A stretch of 10,654 nt of DNA from Nitrospirae bacterium CG2_30_53_67 (GCA_001873285.1 MNYV01000048.1:1-10654), one strand, 5' to 3'; counted from the first letter of the stretch, positions 3,007 through 10,654 are shown. The notes: generated by a model not told the origin, from the sequence alone. A program made the numbers and translations.

Positions 3007-4020
3007 ATGAAAGCCGAGATATTTAAAAAAGAGATACAGCAAGGGAGGATTCCTCCTGTCTGTCTGCTGTACGGTGAAGAGACGCTCCTGATTCGGGAGA
3101 TGATCGACCTGATCCGCAATAAGCTCTCCAGGGGCGGCGATCCGTCCATGGGGCATGAGGTCTTCTACGGCGCCGAGTCCGATGCATCCGCCATCATGCA
3201 ATCAGCCGGGACCGTTCCGCTTTTCGGAGGGACGAAACTGGTGATTGTCAAAGAGATGGACCGGATGCCCGATTCCGAGAAGGAGCGTTTTCTAAAATAC
3301 ATCAAGGATCCGGTACGCGAAACCTGCCTGGTCATGACGTGCGCCAAGCCGGATATGCGTAAGAGATTTTTTGCTCAGATCCAGAAGCAATGGCCCTCGA
3401 TCCGGTTTTATCATCCCTACGATGAAGAACAAACCGGGAAATGGATCCGTTCGTTTCTCAGACAGCAAGGATACAGGATCGAAGACGAAGCGGTTCATTT
3501 TCTAATGGATGCCCACGGACGAGAACTTCAGGTCCTGAAGAACGAACTTCAAAAGCTGATGCTCTATAAGGGGACGCCGGGTGAGATCGCGCTCTCTGAC
3601 GTGACCGAGGTTTCAGGACATTCACGTGAATTCAATTCCTTTGAACTTGCGGATGCCGCCTGTGACAAGGATCTCGAAAAGGCCCTTAAGATCTTATCGC
3701 GGCTGGTTGAAGATGGGACGCCTCCGCTCCTGATCCTTTCGGCCTTGGCATCAAAGTTTCGGAAGATCTGGATGGGAAAAGAGCTTGAAAAGCAAGGCCT
3801 CACGGAACACGAAATCCTGCGGCGCCTGAATATCCGATTTCAAGAAAAAAGGTTTTTAAGGCAATTGCATGGTTTTCAGGAGGAAGAAATCGCCCGCCAC
3901 TATCTGCAAATCGCTTCCCTCGATGAATCGATTAAATCCGGAAGCGGCCGGCATCAGATCTGGATCGAGACGATGATCCATCACATCTGCAGGCGGCCGG
4001 CTGATGTATCCTGTTCGTAA
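3007..4020 (+). CDS. holA: DNA polymerase III delta subunit
   Basis: HolA is the clamp-loader subunit that opens the beta sliding clamp; it acts with the tau/gamma and delta-prime subunits at the replication fork. The 337-residue product has the typical N-terminus with PPVCLLYGEETLLIREMID (16-34). It also has RFYHPYDEEQTGKWI, GRELQVLKNELQKLMLY and an internal helical repeat ending SGSGRHQIWIETMI. There is no P-loop of its own, as expected for delta. No Shine-Dalgarno sequence precedes ATG 3007; the upstream bases are T-rich, so initiation may depend on coupling to the gene ending 19 bases before. The stop codon TAA (4018-4020) lies inside the left end of a palindromic repeat element, which therefore supplies the last few residues. 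In many bacteria holA neighbours rpsT, as here, where the two genes converge. Confidence 0.95.
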   Translation: MKAEIFKKEIQQGRIPPVCLLYGEETLLIREMIDLIRNKLSRGGDPSMGHEVFYGAESDASAIMQSAGTVPLFGGTKLVIVKEMDRMPDSEKERFLKYIKDPVRETCLVMTCAKPDMRKRFFAQIQKQWPSIRFYHPYDEEQTGKWIRSFLRQQGYRIEDEAVHFLMDAHGRELQVLKNELQKLMLYKGTPGEIALSDVTEVSGHSREFNSFELADAACDKDLEKALKILSRLVEDGTPPLLILSALASKFRKIWMGKELEKQGLTEHEILRRLNIRFQEKRFLRQLHGFQEEEIARHYLQIASLDESIKSGSGRHQIWIETMIHHICRRPADVSCS

Positions 4021-4067
4021 ATAGGGTGAAACACCAGCCGCGCCGTCAGTCAGATCGGGCCGCTAAG
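4009..4067. repeat. Shortened copy A of the stop-codon-associated palindromic element
   Basis: The left end, 4009-4030, matches the left end of copy C (10232-10253) at 20 of 22 positions and that of copy B at 17 of 19 over 4009-4027. It encloses the holA stop codon. The right end, 4054-4067, is identical to the right end of copy B (ATCGGGCCGCTAAG). Only about 25 bases of unrelated sequence separate the two ends, so this is a collapsed copy or the remains of one into which copy B inserted. Confidence 0.6.
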
Positions 4068-4231
4068 TGGTCCTATTCGTAAATATGGTAACGTACCGAG
4101 AGGGGCGTAGGGCGGTCTTGTCAAGGCGCGCGACTGAGGCGTACCCTCTGGTACGCCGCAAGGAGCGGAACGCAGATGAGGCCGCCCTACGGCACTCGAA
4201 TGCGACCGTATTTACGAATCGGGCCGCTAAG
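4063..4231. repeat. Palindromic element copy B with 27-bp terminal inverted repeats (MITE/REP-like)
   Basis: The left terminus (4063-4089) and the reverse complement of the right terminus (4205-4231) agree at 22 of 27 positions. The inner 15 bases pair completely if one G-U is allowed. Inside are a 10-bp stem CGTAGGGCGG/CCGCCCTACG (4106-4115 with 4182-4191) and an apical hairpin GGCGTACC-CTCT-GGTACGCC (4138-4157). The whole 169 bases can fold into one long interrupted hairpin. The left terminus recurs at 10224-10250 with two differences. The right terminus contains the rpsT stop codon. Lying between convergent holA and rpsT, it could terminate transcription in both directions. It encodes no transposase. 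Confidence 0.8.
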
Positions 4232-4499
4232 ACTGGGAGGCGAGCTGGTTCACCTTTTTCGTGAGAGCGGACTTTTTTCTGGCGGCGTTATTCTTGTGGA
4301 TAATACCCTTGGTTACGGACTTATCCAAAATACGGAGCGCCCCGGGAAGGGAGGTCTTGGCCCCTTCGATATCCTTTTCAGTGATTAAAGACTCAACCTT
4401 CTTGACCTGTGTTTTCATTCTGGAACGGTGCTGTTTATTTAGAAGGGCCCGTTTACTGCTTTGTCTCATCCGTTTGATTGCTGATGCATGATTCGCCAA
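4227..4499 (-). CDS. rpsT: Ribosomal protein S20
   Basis: The 90-residue product begins (M)ANHASAIKRMRQSSKRALLN and continues with the alanine- and lysine-rich helices and the conserved HKNNAARKKSAL block near the end, typical of bS20 (87 residues in E. coli). S20 binds 16S rRNA early in 30S assembly. The start is TTG at 4499: GGAGG (4512-4508) lies eight bases upstream and the product then begins exactly like other S20 proteins. The in-frame ATG at 4514 overlaps that Shine-Dalgarno sequence and cannot be the true start. E. coli rpsT also uses UUG, where it is tied to autogenous translational control, so similar regulation is plausible. The TAG stop lies inside the terminus of repeat copy B. 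Confidence 0.95.
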   Translation of the reverse strand: MANHASAIKRMRQSSKRALLNKQHRSRMKTQVKKVESLITEKDIEGAKTSLPGALRILDKSVTKGIIHKNNAARKKSALTKKVNQLASQS

Positions 4500-4507
4500 T
4501 GTTTTTT

Positions 4508-4512
4508 CCTCC
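4508..4512 (-). promoter_or_regulatory. Ribosome binding site GGAGG deciding the TTG start of rpsT
   Basis: Read on the minus strand, GGAGG is followed by eight bases and then TTG (4499-4497). The upstream ATG shares its G with this site, which excludes it as the initiator. Confidence 0.8.
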
Positions 4513-4531
4513 ATTGTTTTTTATACCAAAT

Positions 4532-4560
4532 TTTTAACATTAAAAAATAAATGTTGTCAA
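4532..4560 (-). promoter_or_regulatory. Possible rpsT promoter
   Basis: On the minus strand TTGACA (4560-4555) is followed by a 17-bp AT-rich spacer and TTAAAA (4537-4532). The -35 is perfect but the -10 is poor, at about three of six. The surroundings are strongly AT-rich, unlike the flanking genes. Confidence 0.4.
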
Positions 4561-4588
4561 GATATTATTGCAGCACCGGTAAAAGTGC

Positions 4589-4617
4589 TTGACATGTTAC
4601 TTTAAAGGTTATATTAT
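4589..4617 (+). promoter_or_regulatory. Sigma70 promoter for the zapB-like/zapA genes
   Basis: TTGACA (4589-4594), a 17-bp spacer and TATTAT (4612-4617) lie 40 bases before the zapB-like start. It is back to back with the presumed rpsT promoter, only 28 bases from its -35 box. Confidence 0.7.
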
Positions 4618-4657
4618 AAAAGATAATTGTAACATACCGTAAAATAGGGGATTTTAG

Positions 4658-4963
4658 ATGAGTATGATTAATCTGGATACAATGGATCGAAAGATTCAAG
4701 AGGCCCTTGATCTCATTTTAAATCTTCAGGAAGAAAATGATGTTCTGAAAAAAGAACTTGAAGCATGCCGCAAGGGCCTTCAAGAGAAGGGAAAAGAGAT
4801 TGCCGATAAAAATCTGATCAAAGACCGGGATGAAGCCATATTGGAAGACATTCAGACTTTACGCCAGGAGCGGGTACAGATCAGGCAGAGGATCAAGAAC
4901 ATCCTGAAAAAAATTGAAGGGATCGATATGGAAGAAGAAAAGGTCCAGAAAGAGTTGTTTTAA
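4658..4963 (+). CDS. ZapB-like coiled-coil protein encoded upstream of zapA
   Basis: The 101-residue product is almost entirely charged helix with leucines and isoleucines at heptad spacing: LDLILNLQEENDVLKKELEA, a central helix rich in Lys and Glu, and RQRIKNILKKIEGI near the end. It has no signal peptide and no cysteine cluster. Position directly before zapA and the coiled-coil composition suggest a ZapB-type partner that would link ZapA-decorated FtsZ filaments at midcell. Coiled coils score poorly by sequence, so the name is an inference from context. AGGGG lies seven bases before ATG 4658. Length resembles that of ZapB-like proteins (about 80-110 residues). Confidence 0.6.
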   Translation: MSMINLDTMDRKIQEALDLILNLQEENDVLKKELEACRKGLQEKGKEIADKNLIKDRDEAILEDIQTLRQERVQIRQRIKNILKKIEGIDMEEEKVQKELF

Positions 4964-5026
4964 TCAAATCAAATAGGCTATACCGGCGCAAAGGCCGCAG
5001 CAGTGAAGGAATCCGGAGGGAAATCC

Positions 5027-5311
5027 ATGGCAAACCAGGTGAATGTTAAGATTTTCGGCCAGGAATTTACCATAAAGGGGGAAGACACGCCTGAATATGT
5101 GGAGGAACTCGCAGGGTTTGTCGATAAAAAGATGAGAGAGGTCGCATCTGCATCTTCTGTGATCACCTCCCACAAGGTAGCCATTCTGACGGCCATTAAT
5201 ATTGCCGATGAGCTCTTCCGCCTGCAAAAGGTCATGAATGAACAGGAGGAAAAAATAAGGAAAAAAGTCGACGAATGGGCCGGCATTTTGGGCAAGGCGC
5301 AGAAAAAATAA
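5027..5311 (+). CDS. zapA: Cell division protein ZapA
   Basis: ZapA binds FtsZ and bundles its filaments in the cytosolic Z-ring. The 94-residue product begins MANQVNVKIFGQEFTIKG, the beta-hairpin of the ZapA N-terminal domain. VEELAGFVDKKMREVA and SHKVAILTAINIADEL (the conserved 'ILAALNIADEL'-type block) follow, and a C-terminal coiled coil (KVMNEQEEKIRKKVDEWAGIL) mediates dimerisation. ATG 5027 has GGAGGG at 5015-5020; a GTG at 5003 would add eight non-homologous residues. It follows the zapB-like gene by 63 bases and presumably shares its promoter. 6S RNA lies directly downstream, a neighbourhood conserved in many proteobacteria. Confidence 0.92.
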   Translation: MANQVNVKIFGQEFTIKGEDTPEYVEELAGFVDKKMREVASASSVITSHKVAILTAINIADELFRLQKVMNEQEEKIRKKVDEWAGILGKAQKK

Positions 5312-5342
5312 AAGATTCGTTCTCTTCAAATTTTTTTCACTA

Positions 5343-5371
5343 TTGACTTTTATTTTCCCCCTCGATATAGT
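5343..5371 (+). promoter_or_regulatory. Sigma70 promoter of the 6S RNA gene
   Basis: TTGACT (5343-5348), a 17-bp spacer and TATAGT (5366-5371) each deviate from consensus at one position. Transcription should begin around 5378, just before the 6S RNA secondary structure. Confidence 0.75.
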
Positions 5372-5377
5372 AGCAAA

Positions 5378-5575
5378 TACTTGAACGGAACATTTGATCT
5401 CCCTGCCTTGCAAGTGATGGCCGGCAGTGTTTTGAGCCAACACTTATTTGAATGGGAACCGGCCCTGAAGACGGTGTGCATGCCCTCTTGAGAGGGAAGC
5501 CTGAAGTCTTTATCACGGTACCCACCTGGGTTATCAGGTTCAAATAGTTGCGGCCACACGGCAAGGCGGGGGGGT
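5378..5575 (+). ncRNA. ssrS: 6S RNA
   Basis: 6S RNA mimics an open promoter and sequesters sigma70 RNA polymerase in stationary phase. The sequence can form a closing stem of GCCTTGC (5405-5411) with GCAAGGC (5561-5567), continued by C/T-rich against G-rich bases on the outside. A second stem pairs GGCCGG (5419-5424) with CCGGCC (5459-5464). The apical arm has AAGAC/GTCTT and the hairpin CCCTC-TTGA-GAGGG (5483-5496). GAGCC, GTGCATGC and GAAGCCT occur in the same order as GAGCC, GAGCATGC and GAAGCCT of E. coli 6S RNA. The hairpin ACCTG...CAGGT (5524-5539) parallels the 3' arm. The gene lies directly after zapA, the classical location. Ends are estimates: the 5' end from the promoter, the 3' end from the closing stem. 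Confidence 0.85.
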
Positions 5576-5668
5576 TATATATATAGATCATATTGAGATG
5601 ATATAAACCGAGTTGCTTATCCATAAGACATCCCAACGACTGATTCAGGGAGGAAAAAGGAATTTTAA

Positions 5669-5710
5669 ATGCAGCGCAGGAGAATAAAGGGAGCAGGAAA
5701 ACCTCAATGA
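5669..5710 (+). CDS. Possible 13-residue leader-type ORF
   Basis: ATG 5669 encodes MQRRRIKGAGKPQ and stops at TGA 5708-5710. That stop overlaps the ATG of the next ORF (ATGA). AAGG lies eight bases before the start, and a stronger GGGAGG lies further upstream. The peptide is strongly basic. It could be a leader peptide coupling translation to the following ORF, but it is short enough to arise by chance. Confidence 0.25.
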   Translation: MQRRRIKGAGKPQ

Positions 5711-5865
5711 AAGCGTTTAGTCTCGTACATGATGAGTTTCACCGGCTTGTAAAATTAAATAAAGCGGTCCATCCATATGGTTCTTTAAAAGTGGGGGGAA
5801 AACTCCTGGTTGAACTTCATCAGGTTTCGCAGTTCCCGTTGAAGAAACCTGCAGGCGATCGGTGA
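5707..5865 (+). CDS. Small hypothetical ORF, 52 residues
   Basis: The product starts MKAFSLVHDEFHRLVKLNKA and ends QFPLKKPAGDR. It is soluble in composition, contains four histidines and no cysteine, and has no signal peptide or membrane segment. I do not recognise the family. Its ATG overlaps the stop of the 13-residue ORF, and an AGG lies nine bases upstream. Three TGA codons stand in a row at its end (5863-5871). Beyond them the same frame stays open to 5994. It may be a genuine small protein or the decayed remnant of a longer gene. Confidence 0.35.
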   Translation: MKAFSLVHDEFHRLVKLNKAVHPYGSLKVGGKLLVELHQVSQFPLKKPAGDR

Positions 5866-5904
5866 TGATGACGCTCATGTTACAAGGCTGAACCGGTGAA
5901 GGTC

Positions 5905-5994
5905 ATGAAGAAATGTTCACTTTGTCCCTATTTTTTGGTTGGGACGGCTTTTTATCTCGAAAAAACAACGAAGCCCCGGAATAAAAGGACTTAG
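5905..5994 (+). CDS. Possible 29-residue ORF with a CxxC pair
   Basis: ATG 5905, preceded by GGTGAAGG, encodes MKKCSLCPYFLVGTAFYLEK and a basic tail, stopping at TAG 5992-5994. It is in the same frame as the 52-residue ORF, separated by three consecutive TGA codons and eleven sense codons. Its stop lies in the loop of the possible terminator. The CSLC pair and the hydrophobic centre are the only notable traits. Chance occurrence cannot be excluded. Confidence 0.2.
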   Translation: MKKCSLCPYFLVGTAFYLEKTTKPRNKRT

Positions 5995-6006
5995 GTCCTC
6001 CTTTTT
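5983..6006 (+). terminator. Possible intrinsic terminator upstream of rarA
   Basis: AGGAC (5986-5990), loop TTAG and GTCCT (5995-5999) form a short stem that can be extended by AAAA against TTTT across two bulged C residues. Five T residues follow at 6002-6006. It could end transcription from the 6S RNA and small-ORF region. The stem is short, so confidence is modest. Confidence 0.45.
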
Positions 6007-6188
6007 ACTGACCGGTCTGATCGTTGTCCGATCTTCTTCCTTTGTTTCCCATCCTGTGTGCAAACCATCATCGCAGACGAATTGAGGTTTGAGAACCCCT
6101 TGGGGGCCGGATCGGCTTTAGTTTATTCCGTAAGAGGATCAAAGTCCCTTTTGGAGTCAGGATTTTTCCCCAGGTTTGAGGTGACGTC

Positions 6189-7526
6189 TTGGAACTTTTC
6201 CAACAGGAAGAAAGGCCGGAGACCGAGCAGGATGCCCCCCTGGCATGGCGGATGCGTCCCAAAAGCCTGGACGAGTTTGAGGGGCAGCGTCATCTGCTGG
6301 CCCACGGCAAACCGCTTCGCAGGGCCATTGAGGAGGACCGCATGGCTTCATTTATCTTCTATGGACCCCCTGGGACCGGCAAGACTGCATTGGCGGGCCT
6401 CATGGCTGAAAGAACCGGCGCGGCCTTTGTTGCTTTGAACGCCGTCACAGCCGGAGTCGTGGATATTCGTAAAGCGGCCAGAGACGCGGAAGAGGTGAAA
6501 AAACTCCGGCAGAGAAAGACCATTCTCTTTGTCGACGAGATCCATCGATTCAATAAGATCCAGCAGGATGCCATGCTTCCTGATCTGGAAAAGGGGAAGA
6601 TGATTCTGATCGGCGCTTCTACGGAGAATCCTTTTTTCGCCTTGATCCCGGCCCTCCGTTCCCGTTCCCGGATCCTCGAATTCAAACCGCTTCTTGAAGA
6701 AGAACTGATGCGCATTTTAAGACGCGCCATGGAGGATCCGGTTCGGGGTTTCGGCCGGATCAAAATCCGGATGTCCGAAGAAGCCCTGAAACATATCGTG
6801 ACCCTGGCGGAAGGAGATGCCCGTAAGGCTTTAAACAGCCTGGAAATCGGTGTCCTGTCCACTCTCCCTGTGGACGGGGTTATCGACTTCACTCTCTCCG
6901 TGGCGGAAGAGGCGGTCCAAAAAAAAGCGCTGCTGTACGACAGGGATGGAGACGCCCATTACGATACAGCCTCGGCTTTTATAAAGAGCATGCGGGGTTC
7001 AGACCCGGACGCTGCCATTTACTATTTGGCCAGGATGATTGAAGCGGGTGAAGACCCCCGCTTCATGGCCAGAAGGATCGTGATCTGCGCATCCGAAGAC
7101 GTGGGGAACGCCGACCCGAGAGCGCTTTTGATCGCCGAGGCTGCCCAGCGGGCCGTGGAGAGGGTCGGTATGCCGGAAGCAAGAATCATTCTGGCCCAGG
7201 CGGTCACGTACATCGCCACGGCGCCGAAGAGCAATGCCTCTTATATGGCCGTGGAACAGGCCCTCTCGGACGTCCGTTCCGGGGAGACACTTCCCATCCC
7301 TGATTTCCTCAGGGATTCCCATTATGAGGGCGCCGGATCCTTAGGAAGGGGCAAGGGATACCGGTATCCCCATGATGAACCGGGTCACTTTGTTCCTCAA
7401 AATTACCTCTCCGTGGAGAAACATTATTATCACCCCACAGGCGAGGGGTACGAGCAGGCGATTCGAGAGAGGATGAACGGCTGGAAGAAGAAAAAGGAAG
7501 CCGTCAAAAATGACACGAACCATTAA
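6189..7526 (+). CDS. rarA: Replication-associated recombination protein A (RarA/MgsA AAA+ ATPase)
   Basis: RarA is a cytosolic AAA+ ATPase related to clamp loaders and to RuvB. It acts at stalled forks with SSB and is the bacterial counterpart of yeast Mgs1 and human WRNIP1. The 445-residue product has [20 protein letters not shown], the family's N-terminal box, and Walker A GPPGTGKT (59-66). Walker B ILFVDEIH (112-119), sensor 1 GASTENP (142-148) and an arginine-finger region RSRSR follow. The C-terminal tetramerisation domain contains [20 protein letters not shown], and the sequence ends with the characteristic [15 protein letters not shown] 6189 is the start because GAGGTGA precedes it by four bases and the product then has normal length. 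Only 26 bases separate it from the chosen rny start, so the two probably share a transcript. Confidence 0.95.
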
Positions 7527-7552
7527 CCACTAAGGGGGTGAAGACCATTCAT

Positions 7553-9112
7553 ATGGATTTAATGACCGTACTGTGGATCGTTCTTTCGGGGATCATCGGG
7601 GTCTCTTTAGGATGGATCTTCAGTCAACAGATGTACAAGAGGAAGGCCGGGAAGTCCCGCAAGGAATCCGAAGGGATCATCGTTTCGGCAAAAAAACAGG
7701 CCGATCAGACGGTGAAGGAGGCTCGTCTTGAAGCCAAGGAGATGATCTACCAGGCCCGCTCCGAGTTTGAAAAGGAGACCAAGGACGTCCGTTCCGAACT
7801 CCAGAGCAGGGAGAAGCGTCTCGCTCAGAAAGAAGAAAACATTGAGAAGCGTTTTACCCTGATCGAGAAGAAGGAGTCGGATGTCAAGGGCAGGGAAAAG
7901 GGGCTGATGACCATGGAGAAACGGGTTCAGGAGAAAGAGGCCAAGTACAACCAGGCCTTGGCCGAACAGATCCAGAAGCTGGAACGGATCTCAGGCATGT
8001 CTTCTGAAGAGGCCAAGCGGACCCTGATGCAGAACATGGAGGATGAGGCCCGTTTCGAATCCGCTAAGAATGTGAAGCGGATTCTGGATGAAACCCGGGA
8101 GAACGCGGAGAAAGAGGCAAAAAACATCATCGCCCTGGCCATGCAGAGATGCGCCGCGGACTTTACATCGGAGATCACCGTCTCCGTGGTGAATCTGCCC
8201 AGTGATGAGATGAAGGGGCGGATCATCGGGCGTGAGGGACGGAACATCCGTTCCTTGGAGGCCGCGACCGGCATCGATCTGATTATCGATGACACCCCGG
8301 AAGCCGTGATTCTCTCGGGGTATGATCCGATCCGGAGAGAGGTGGCCCGTATCTCGCTTGAGCGGTTGATCAGCGACGGCAGGATCCACCCGGCGCGAAT
8401 CGAAGAGGTGGTGAACAAGGTCCGTAAGGAAGTTGATCAATCGATTAAGGAAGAAGGAGAGAAGGCCACGTTTGACGTGGGTGTCCATGCGGTGCATCCG
8501 GAGATCATCAAGCTGATCGGCCGTTTGAAATACCGGACCAGTTATGGGCAGAACGTCCTGAATCACTCCGAAGAGGTGGCCTATCTCTGCGGGATCATGG
8601 CCTCGGAACTGAAGCTGGATGTGACCCTGGCCAAACGGGCCGGCCTGCTGCATGACATCGGCAAAGCCGTGGACCATGAAGTCGAGGGGACCCATTCTGC
8701 TATTGGGGCGGACCTGGCGCGGAAATACGGCGAAGATCCCAAAGTGATCAATGCCATTGCCTCGCATCACGATGATGTGGAGGCGATCTGTCCTGAATCC
8801 GTCCTGGTCGCGGCTGCGGATGCGCTCTCAGCGGCAAGGCCCGGCGCGAGAAAAGAGAGCCTGGATGCCTATGTCAAGAGGCTTGAAAAACTCGAAGAGA
8901 TCGCCAACACCTTCGAAGGTGTGGAAAAGTCTTATGCCATACAGGCCGGCCGCGAGGTTCGGATCATCGTCGAGAATGGACAGGTATCCGATGAAAAGGC
9001 GGCGATCATGGTGAGAGATATCTGCAAAAAGATCGAACAGGAATTGACCTATCCAGGCAAGATCAAGGTCACCGTGATCAGGGAGAGCCGTTTTGTGGAA
9101 TACGCAAAATAA
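7553..9112 (+). CDS. rny: Ribonuclease Y
   Basis: RNase Y is a membrane-anchored endoribonuclease that initiates mRNA decay. The 519-residue product has one N-terminal transmembrane helix (about residues 5-25). A long charged coiled coil (about 30-190) follows, then a KH domain with GREGRN (226-231) and [20 protein letters not shown]. The HD phosphohydrolase domain has HSEEVA and LLHDIGKA, the HD pair being H367/D368. The ending RFVEYAK is typical of the family. ATG 7553 gives the usual length (B. subtilis 520 residues). GTG 7538 is in frame, but the ribosome-site-like AAGGGGGTG overlaps it, so it is less likely; ATG 7562 is a third option. The TAA stop merges into an AT-rich palindrome. Gene order rny-ymdB is conserved in many bacteria. 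Confidence 0.95.
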
Positions 9113-9145
9113 ATTTGTTAAACGGTTTAACCGTTAAACAAATTT
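9111..9145. terminator. Long AT-rich palindrome overlapping the rny stop codon
   Basis: 9111-9126 pairs with 9130-9145 over 16 bp with a single A-A mismatch and a three-base loop (TTA). The core is AACGGT/ACCGTT with flanking AAATTTGTT. It begins inside the TAA of rny. No T-tract follows on either strand, so it is not a textbook intrinsic terminator. It would form a stable mRNA 3' end or could be an operator-like palindrome. Confidence 0.5.
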
Positions 9146-9177
9146 AGGATCATCTCCAAAAAAGTGGATGAAAACAT

Positions 9178-9401
9178 CAGGGGTCAAGGGGTCAAGGATT
9201 CCAGGGGTCAAGAGAAGTGCTAAAAACATAAAGGGTCGAGGATTATAGGGTTCAAGGGTTCCAGTGTTTTTCTCTGAAGATTTTGCTTGCGTTCTTGTAC
9301 TCGGTTTACCGGTATCAGTATTTCACTTGAACCCTTGACCCCTCGGCCCCTGGAACCCTATGGATCTTCAACCCTCGAACCCTTTTTACCCACTGGAACC
9401 C
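9178..9401. repeat. G-rich GGGGTCAAGG-type repeat array with inverted arms
   Basis: The left arm (9178-9266) contains AGGGGTCAAG at 9179-9188 and 9203-9212, with degenerate forms GGGTTCAAGGGTTCCAG and GGGTCGAGG. The right arm (9324-9401) carries the same words in reverse complement: CTTGACCCCT (9334-9343), GAACCCTAT (9353-9361) and CACTGGAACCC (9391-9401). GGGTTCCAGTG (9256-9266) is the perfect complement of the last. About 57 bases of unrelated, less G-rich sequence (9267-9323) separate the arms. The array fills most of the rny-ymdB gap, encodes nothing, and could form cruciforms or alternative hairpins. Confidence 0.8.
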
Positions 9402-9447
9402 AAATTTATTCCCCATAATGGGGGAGGGATTATCAGGAAGTTTCCCA

Positions 9448-10227
9448 ATGAAGATCCTTTTTCTCGGCGATATTATCGGTAAGCCCGGCAGGCAGGCGGC
9501 GGCGCGTTCACTTCCGAAACTGATCACCCGGTTCGGAGTCGATCTCTGCGCGGCGAATGGCGAGAACGCCGCCGCAGGCTTCGGGCTGACACCGAAGGTT
9601 TTCGAGGAGCTCAAGGCCATGGAGATCCAGGTCCTGACCTCAGGGAACCATATCTGGAACAAAAAGGAGGTCTACCCGCTTTTGGATGAACAGAAGAATA
9701 TTCTCAGGCCGGCCAATTATCCTCCCGGTGTTCCAGGCCGGGGGAGCTGCGTGGTTTCCACGGCTTCGGGCGAGAAGGTCGCGTTCCTGAACCTGATGGG
9801 AAGGGTTTTCATGAACCCGCTTGACTGCCCCTTCCGGTGCGCGGAGGCCGAGGTGGAGAGGCTCCGGCATGAGACGCCGGTCATCATCGTTGACTTCCAT
9901 GCCGAGGCCACATCCGAAAAGATCGCCATGGGATGGTTCTTAAACGGCAAGGTCAGCGCCGTCCTGGGGACCCATACCCATGTGCAGACCGCGGATGAGA
10001 CGATCCTTCCCGGCGGGACCGCCTATATCACCGACGTGGGGATGACCGGTCCGAGAGACTCGGTCATCGGCGTCAAAAAAGAGATTATCATTGAAAAGTA
10101 CCTCTACCAGATTCCTCAGCGGTTCGACACCGCGAACGGACCCACGCTCCTCTGCGGGGTCCTCCTGGACCTGGATGCCGGCACAGGGAAGGCAAACCAT
10201 ATCCTGCGTCTTAGACTGGAAGACTAA
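9448..10227 (+). CDS. ymdB: YmdB-family metallophosphoesterase (2',3'-cyclic-nucleotide phosphodiesterase)
   Basis: YmdB proteins are dinuclear-metal phosphodiesterases that hydrolyse cyclic nucleotides. In B. subtilis YmdB affects biofilm and motility gene expression and is encoded next to RNase Y. The 259-residue product begins MKILFLGDIIGKPGR (metal ligand D8) and contains ANGENAAAGFG (E39, N40) and TSGNHIWN (N67, H68). DFHAEATSEK (H151) and GTHTHVQTAD (H176, H178) complete the metallophosphoesterase ligand set. ATG 9448 follows AGGAAG by seven bases and matches the family N-terminus; ATG 9418 in frame would add ten residues overlapping that site. The TAA stop (10225-10227) is part of the terminus of repeat copy C. 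Confidence 0.93.
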   Translation: MKILFLGDIIGKPGRQAAARSLPKLITRFGVDLCAANGENAAAGFGLTPKVFEELKAMEIQVLTSGNHIWNKKEVYPLLDEQKNILRPANYPPGVPGRGSCVVSTASGEKVAFLNLMGRVFMNPLDCPFRCAEAEVERLRHETPVIIVDFHAEATSEKIAMGWFLNGKVSAVLGTHTHVQTADETILPGGTAYITDVGMTGPRDSVIGVKKEIIIEKYLYQIPQRFDTANGPTLLCGVLLDLDAGTGKANHILRLRLED

Positions 10228-10441
10228 GTGGTCCTGTTCATAAATATGGTGAAGTATTGGCGGCCTTTTAGCCCTCTTTATTTTATGTCATTCCCGAGGG
10301 TTTAATCGGGAATATGGTTGTTTTGTATGAATAGGTGCTTTCAATTTACGGGTTTTAACGCAAACCAGATCCCCGATAGAGACATTCGGGGATGACGAAT
10401 AATAATATTACGTCATCGTATTTATGAATTTGTGTACTAAG
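10224..10441. repeat. Palindromic element copy C, same family as copy B, filling the ymdB-xseA gap
   Basis: The left terminus 10224-10250 differs from that of copy B at only two of 27 positions; the shared core is TCCTRTTCRTAAATATGGT. The right terminus (10415-10441) pairs with the left over 15 consecutive positions, allowing G-U pairs, and ends in the same CTAAG. The G-U at the T of AAATAT occurs at the same place in copy B. The internal sequence is unrelated to that of B and contains a second palindromic repeat. The left terminus includes the ymdB stop codon. The right terminus places TAAGGA 12 bases before the xseA start. Confidence 0.75.
10287..10396. repeat. Nested palindromic repeat inside copy C (dRS3-like hairpins)
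   Basis: Two hairpins are visible: ATTCCCGA/TCGGGAAT (10290-10297 with 10306-10313) and ATCCCCGA/TCGGGGAT (10369-10376 with 10386-10393). In addition, GTCATTCCCGA at 10287 pairs with TCGGGGATGAC ending at 10396, apart from one G-U, so the pair forms a 110-bp unit with inverted ends. ATTCCC-n8-GGGAAT resembles the arrangement of the dRS3 repeats of Neisseria; homology is not claimed. Confidence 0.65.
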
Positions 10442-10455
10442 GATGAACGCAAATC

Positions 10456-10654
10456 ATGGAAGACCTGCAAAGCCTCCCCTATGATATCCTGACGGTTCAT
10501 GAGCTGACGGCAAGGATCCGCGGCCGGCTGGAAGAGACGTTTCCCTCCGTCTGGGTCACGGGCGAAATATCCAATCTCAAGACTCCCTATTCCGGGCATA
10601 CCTATTTTACACTGAAGGATGAAGAAGCCCAGATCCAGGCTGTGTTCTTCAAAT
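10456..10654 (+). CDS. xseA: Exodeoxyribonuclease VII large subunit, 3' truncated by window
   Basis: XseA with XseB forms a cytosolic exonuclease that degrades single-stranded DNA to oligonucleotides. The 66 complete codons seen encode the N-terminal OB-fold: [20 protein letters not shown] followed by [20 protein letters not shown] and [15 protein letters not shown]. These are the hallmark blocks of XseA, in which 'V.GEISN...SGH.YFTLKD' is highly conserved. ATG 10456 gives the usual short lead into that fold. The only ribosome-site candidate, AAGGA at 10439-10443, is 12 bases away and overlaps the end of repeat copy C. The ymdB-xseA gap is otherwise entirely repeat, so expression may come from read-through or from within the repeat. 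Confidence 0.93.

Follow-up and report, generated by a model that had tools for sequence, protein, structure and literature searches.

The repeats in the window, a 10,654-nucleotide stretch from Nitrospirae bacterium CG2_30_53_67, are members of a new, well-delimited family of non-autonomous palindromic MITEs, a known kind of bacterial mini-transposon. A MITE that is mobilised in trans and inserts into the word C-TWA-G with duplication of TWA very probably explains both the repeats and the stop codons at the intact copies. The elements have terminal inverted repeats and a target duplication of fixed length, are short and lack a transposase gene, and occur in many copies with corresponding empty sites. 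The stop codons are the genes' own pre-existing target words, kept or duplicated by the insertion, which is an elegant but ordinary explanation.

Three copies lie in the window (Table 1), as proposed by the initial annotation. Direct reading confirmed the quoted termini, with left ends agreeing at 25 of 27 positions between copies B and C and at 20 of 22 between A and C, and the positions of the three host stops (holA, rpsT and ymdB). The boundaries of B and C had to be redrawn. The interiors of these two copies are indeed unrelated, but only C is atypical, whereas B is a typical family member with 27-bp arms that are 81 % complementary. The right end of copy C, GTACACAAATTCATAAATACGATGACG, is unlike the family right end and represents a further type, beyond the two related MITE families described below. 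The inner palindrome of copy C, GTCATTCCCG...CGGGGATGAC, is also different. A palindrome GTCATTCCCGAGG...CGGGGATGAC is nested in the copy at window positions ~10285-10400, and a GTCATTCCCCG repeat similar to the inner palindrome is found beside a copy at L060.

Table 1. Element copies and their flanking duplications in the window.
Feature	Position	Strand	Remarks
Relic copy A	4009..4063	+	From the recognisable terminus start to the shared CTAAG word; degenerate, without a clean duplication
Copy B left duplication, TAA	4064..4066	+	Within CTAAG 4063-4067
Copy B	4067..4227	+	161-bp palindromic MITE, 93.8 % identity to the family consensus
Copy B right duplication, TAA	4228..4230	+	
Copy C left duplication, TAA	10225..10227	+	Is the ymdB stop codon
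Copy C	10228..10437	+	210 bp, atypical; left end of the family type, right end divergent
Copy C right duplication, TAA	10438..10440	+	xseA-like gene starts soon downstream, ATGGAAGAC near 10456

In the 2.36-Mb genome of 183 contigs, the terminus core was found 173 times with at most three mismatches (89 forward and 84 reverse), compared to a single match for the reversed pattern used as a control. The core is repeated far above chance, and the matches correspond to approximately 85 elements, so the absence of further copies, a case allowed for by the initial annotation, did not occur. The contigs C6, C17, C72, C76, C125, C138, C141 and C164 of this genome (G000) terminate inside or right beside elements. 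The draft assembly probably breaks at the elements, and since contigs end in or beside them, the copy number of approximately 85 is a lower bound.

About 690 kb around the core matches was taken for the analysis of individual copies, and 71 copies with both ends were present there. Most of them (49 of 71) measure 161-163 bp within a full range of 60-225 bp, and the 161-165-bp class has a mean pairwise identity of 90 % and a mean identity of 93 % to the consensus. The family left end, GTGGTCCTGTTCGTAAATATGGTGACGTACC, and the inverted right end, GTGGCCCTATTCGTAAATACGGTGGCATTCGAG, pair across 23 columns of the alignment and are flanked by TWA (short form GTGGYCCTRTTCGTAAATA). The whole unit of ~162 bp is a near-perfect palindrome. 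The predicted RNA fold reaches -111 kcal/mol (z -14) for a typical copy and -102 kcal/mol (z -10) for window copy B. The five differences between the consensus arms (alignment A1 columns 5/163, 9/159, 20/148, 28/142 and 39/132) are all G-U wobbles on one strand and A-C mismatches on the other. Only short chance ORFs and no transposase gene were found inside the elements.

The words CTAAG and CTTAG, which the initial annotation had counted as part of the inverted terminus, are the target word C-TWA-G and lie outside the terminus, with TWA being duplicated on insertion. Both flanks carry the same word on one strand and therefore form a direct repeat rather than an inverted one. The flanking 3 bp are identical in 52 of the 71 copies (TAA/TAA in 26 and TTA/TTA in 26), compared to about one expected by chance. 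Outside this flank, 62 of the 71 copies have C and 60 have G. Copies were also found in the non-standard words T-TAA-A, C-TAA-A, C-TTA-C and G-TAA-G (TTAAA, CTAAA, CTTAC and GTAAG). Because of these copies, the duplication can be set at 3 bp rather than 5 bp, with the element starting with G and ending with C. The duplication is imperfect in 19 of the 71 copies, which, as expected, fits older copies. When the copies are read in element orientation, TAA is more frequent than TTA (34 vs 17), which indicates a mild orientation preference. In the nearest relative, G001, a member of the same genus, the duplication is TWA in 12 of 18 copies and TCA in one.

Orthologous loci in the relatives contain empty sites, so that the ordinary conserved 3' UTR considered by the initial annotation did not appear, and its view of a multi-copy, mobile, gene-less family with conserved ends is borne out by these sites together with the 173 core matches. 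Copy C is absent in G001, where ...CTGGAAGATGAAGGATGAGCGCAAACCATGG stands against ...CTGGAAGAC-TAA-(copy C)-TAA-GGATGAACGCAAATCATGG in this genome, and the empty ymdB-xseA site GAAGAC-TAA-GGATGA of L277 matches GAAGATGAAGGATGA of copy C. Copy B is absent in G001 as well (L214), which has a single CTAAG between holA and rpsT. Further unoccupied orthologous sites give similar results, with the sites in the relative having drifted to 80-90 % identity and some empty-site junctions not being base-perfect. Reciprocally, two sites are filled in G001 and empty in this genome, and one insertion looks common to both but is broken in this genome (L038:3143 vs L105). In L281 (G005, another genus), an element of this type, degenerate and independently inserted, follows ymdB at the ymdB-xseA junction. 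All six genomes of the taxonomic family carry these elements, whereas both genomes of the sister family lack them. Very short versions were also observed, namely 26 bp in a Desulfosarcina MAG (L160, ~1438-1463; TAA-GTGGCCCTATTTACGAACAGGACCAC-TAA), and similarly short ones at L148 (~6325-6355) and L149 (~4408-4457).

For the mechanism, it is proposed that a transposase acting in trans would bind the ~23-bp ends GTGGYCCTRTTCGTAAATAYGGT and make a 3-bp staggered cut at TWA inside C-TWA-G, and that the element would be pasted in with TWA duplicated. Movement in trans, as suggested by the initial annotation, is probable. The target word can itself be a stop, either as C-TAA-G or as CT-TAG, in which the element contributes an identical G. 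A copy that lands precisely at the end of a gene therefore leaves the protein unchanged and survives selection, which explains the stops at the intact copies; relic A is the exception. The movement would be cut-and-paste by a DDE transposase, for which an IS5/IS1031-like chemistry is probable since the IS1031 group of the IS5 family also makes 3-bp TNA target duplications (PMC12016507).

An autonomous element or transposase gene flanked by the same termini, as anticipated by the initial annotation, was not found in the fragmented drafts G000-G005 with the Pfam profiles PF01609, PF13340, PF13359, PF07592 and PF13358 (DDE_Tnp_1, DUF4096, DDE_Tnp_4, ISAzo13-type and DDE_3); the ISAzo13-type result is uninformative, as its control also matched nowhere. 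DUF4096 is absent from the six genomes, DDE_Tnp_1 genes are present in the genomes searched with none bounded by these ends, and the viral contigs scanned contain none of the element ends. The partner transposase may have been lost or belong to another family. The family was therefore not assigned to the IS1031 derivatives: the TNA duplication fits, but no related transposase with these ends was found in the six genomes.

Another, related MITE of ~125 bp with the ends GTGCTTCGATTCGCAAATACGGTGAC and 3-bp TNA duplications was observed in L269, L272 and L274 (G002) and in L062 (~3245-3368). Its duplications are TCA/TCA and TTA/TTA, and the copies in G002 have TCA/TCA and no transposase. At least two related MITE families thus have the inner box ATTCRTAAATAYGRTGAC in common. 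No cognate transposase is recognisable in the six genomes. It is conceivable, but rather unlikely, that several such palindromic families of this bacterial family, linked by ATTCRTAAATAYGRTGAC and the TNA duplication, are served by an unrecognised transposase, with the 26-bp copies hinting that hairpin-joined bare ends might still be movable.

Gene ends were assessed with a simple hexamer-based caller, which reproduces most genes of the window. None of 72 copies (the 71 plus window copy C) lies in coding DNA, 16 are exactly on a stop codon (7 TAA, 9 TAG), and the other 56 are intergenic, whereas the CTWAG words left empty in these stretches comprise 111 coding, 15 on stops and 79 intergenic. 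The very large difference between coding and non-coding positions (p = 4e-20) is what selection against the disruption of genes should produce.

An alternative, close to the initial annotation, is that of an adapted 3'-end module, which would be directed to the 3' ends of genes and would bring along a stop codon and an mRNA hairpin. The 16 of 72 copies located exactly on a stop codon are in line with this, as are element ends in which each reading frame meets a stop within 0-38 codons, the strong predicted hairpins, and relic A, which supplies the holA stop. Nevertheless, this alternative is very unlikely. Of the 94 empty non-coding CTWAG words, 15 lie on stops, which is about as frequent (odds ratio 1.5, p = 0.32), in a comparison for which the control comes from stretches selected for holding copies, the gene calls are approximate, and an odds ratio of up to ~3 is compatible. 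Copies lie within 60 nt of a 3' end more often than empty words do (odds ratio 2.5), but the same applies to 5' ends (2.1), and copies are not significantly nearer to 3' than to 5' ends when compared with empty words (p = 0.15). These numbers therefore show no preference for stop codons beyond the availability of the word in non-coding DNA, and none for 3' over 5' gene ends. Element orientation shows no bias with regard to the direction of the neighbouring gene (22 vs 17). The hairpin itself is a strong computed fold, but no intrinsic-terminator structure, i.e. a GC-rich stem followed by a T run, was found at 3950-4300.

The claim that the terminus carries the stop and that insertion restores termination also conflicts with the element-free relatives, which already stop at these positions. 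In the relative without copy B, rpsT stops at the same CTTAG (TAG), and the stop codon at L069:9449 is likewise a stop there, as TAA instead of TAG. A gene ending with GAA AAT TAA in G001 corresponds to GAA CCT TAG followed by the element here. Since there is no stop preference beyond word availability, the association with stops follows from the target word and selection.

With insertion into C-TWA-G, a stop can be kept by two routes. In C-TAA-G, it is the duplicated trinucleotide itself, and in CT-TAG, the duplicated TTA and the first G of the element rebuild TAG. The rpsT TAG stop (minus strand, 4229-4227) consists of the T-A of the right duplication and the last C of copy B. In other frames, reading continues for 5 to 38 codons before the element ends bring a stop. 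The sole clear case of an element-supplied stop is holA, whose last four codons and TAA stop (V-S-C-S-stop) come from the terminal inverted repeat of relic A, while its orthologue in the relative of the same genus terminates with ...CKGPLSL-stop (K-G-P-L-S-L-stop).

Palindromes of the REP/BIME type, mobilised by a REP-associated tyrosine transposase (RAYT), would share the high copy number, the intergenic location and the palindromic structure, and at one contig end (L036) an element end adjoins what looks like another kind of RAYT-like repeat. RAYT/IS200-type transposition leaves no target duplication, in contrast to the 52 of 71 copies here, which makes this origin hardly credible. Moreover, REP units, as described in PMC3733652, are 20-40 bp long with a GTAG or CGTC tag, whereas the unit here is ~162 bp and begins with GTGG. 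Derivation from an IS630-family (Tc1/mariner-like) element was suggested by the terminus GTGCTTGGATTCGTAAATATGGTGAC, which lies 160 bp from a 69-codon IS630-type fragment in L062. This has a negligible probability, as IS630 elements duplicate 2 bp (TA) rather than the 3 bp seen here, that terminus in L062 belongs to a complete ~125-bp MITE with the IS630 piece outside, the same MITE occurs in L269, L272 and L274 without a transposase gene, and the intact IS630 element of G001 has unrelated ends. An IS630 parent, sought through plasmids, viral contigs and the phylum, was ruled out by this separate MITE.

Regarding the repeats as trans-mobilised MITEs, the apparently transposon-borne host stops are explained by a stop-containing target word, a preserving duplication and the initial G of the element, with which TAG is completed. 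Proposals of 3'-end targeting can thereby be held against a clear null model, and an uncultured lineage gains a delimited MITE family with occupied and empty sites. Care is also advised in predicting genes and in assembling such genomes, since several contigs end in these elements.

Two other features were observed in the window. A 6S RNA (RF00013, 120.9 bits) is located at 5397-5576 on the + strand, between a gene ending at 5311 and a gene starting at 6189. A separate inverted-repeat array, GGGTCAAGG / CCTTGACCC, lies at 9178-9359, flanked by genes at 7538-9112 and 9448-10227, and similar repeats are present at L123:468-746 and in this genome's own stretches L048, L049 and L077.

The end sequence was found in none of the papers searched, and the few phrasings tried returned no transposon study on stop-codon insertion. 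PIF/Harbinger elements and Tourist MITEs of eukaryotes duplicate TWA in a CTWAG-like word and share the MITE form; the likeness of this family to these eukaryotic elements is a descriptive one. The 3-bp TNA duplication is common to the IS1031 group of IS5, but the likeness to ISLrh (PMC12016507) is restricted to the duplication, since its ends are GAACCTGTCTAGTATCT compared to GTGGTCCTGTTCG here, where the target is CTWAG. Bacterial MITEs such as MITEAba12 (PMC6382973) and QMITE1/2 of Coxiella (PMC5896051) are, like this family, short and gene-less with terminal inverted repeats and many copies. This family differs from them in its ends, in being palindromic over the whole element, and in that no co-resident parent insertion sequence was found. 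MITEAba12 also generates target duplications, but of 9 bp instead of the 3-bp TWA in CTWAG (PMC6382973), and QMITE2 forms a stable stem (PMC5896051), as is predicted for the elements here. Cases in which the element provides the C-terminus or stop of a neighbouring gene have been reported for QMITE2 in enhC (PMC5896051) and for MITEAba12 (PMC6382973).
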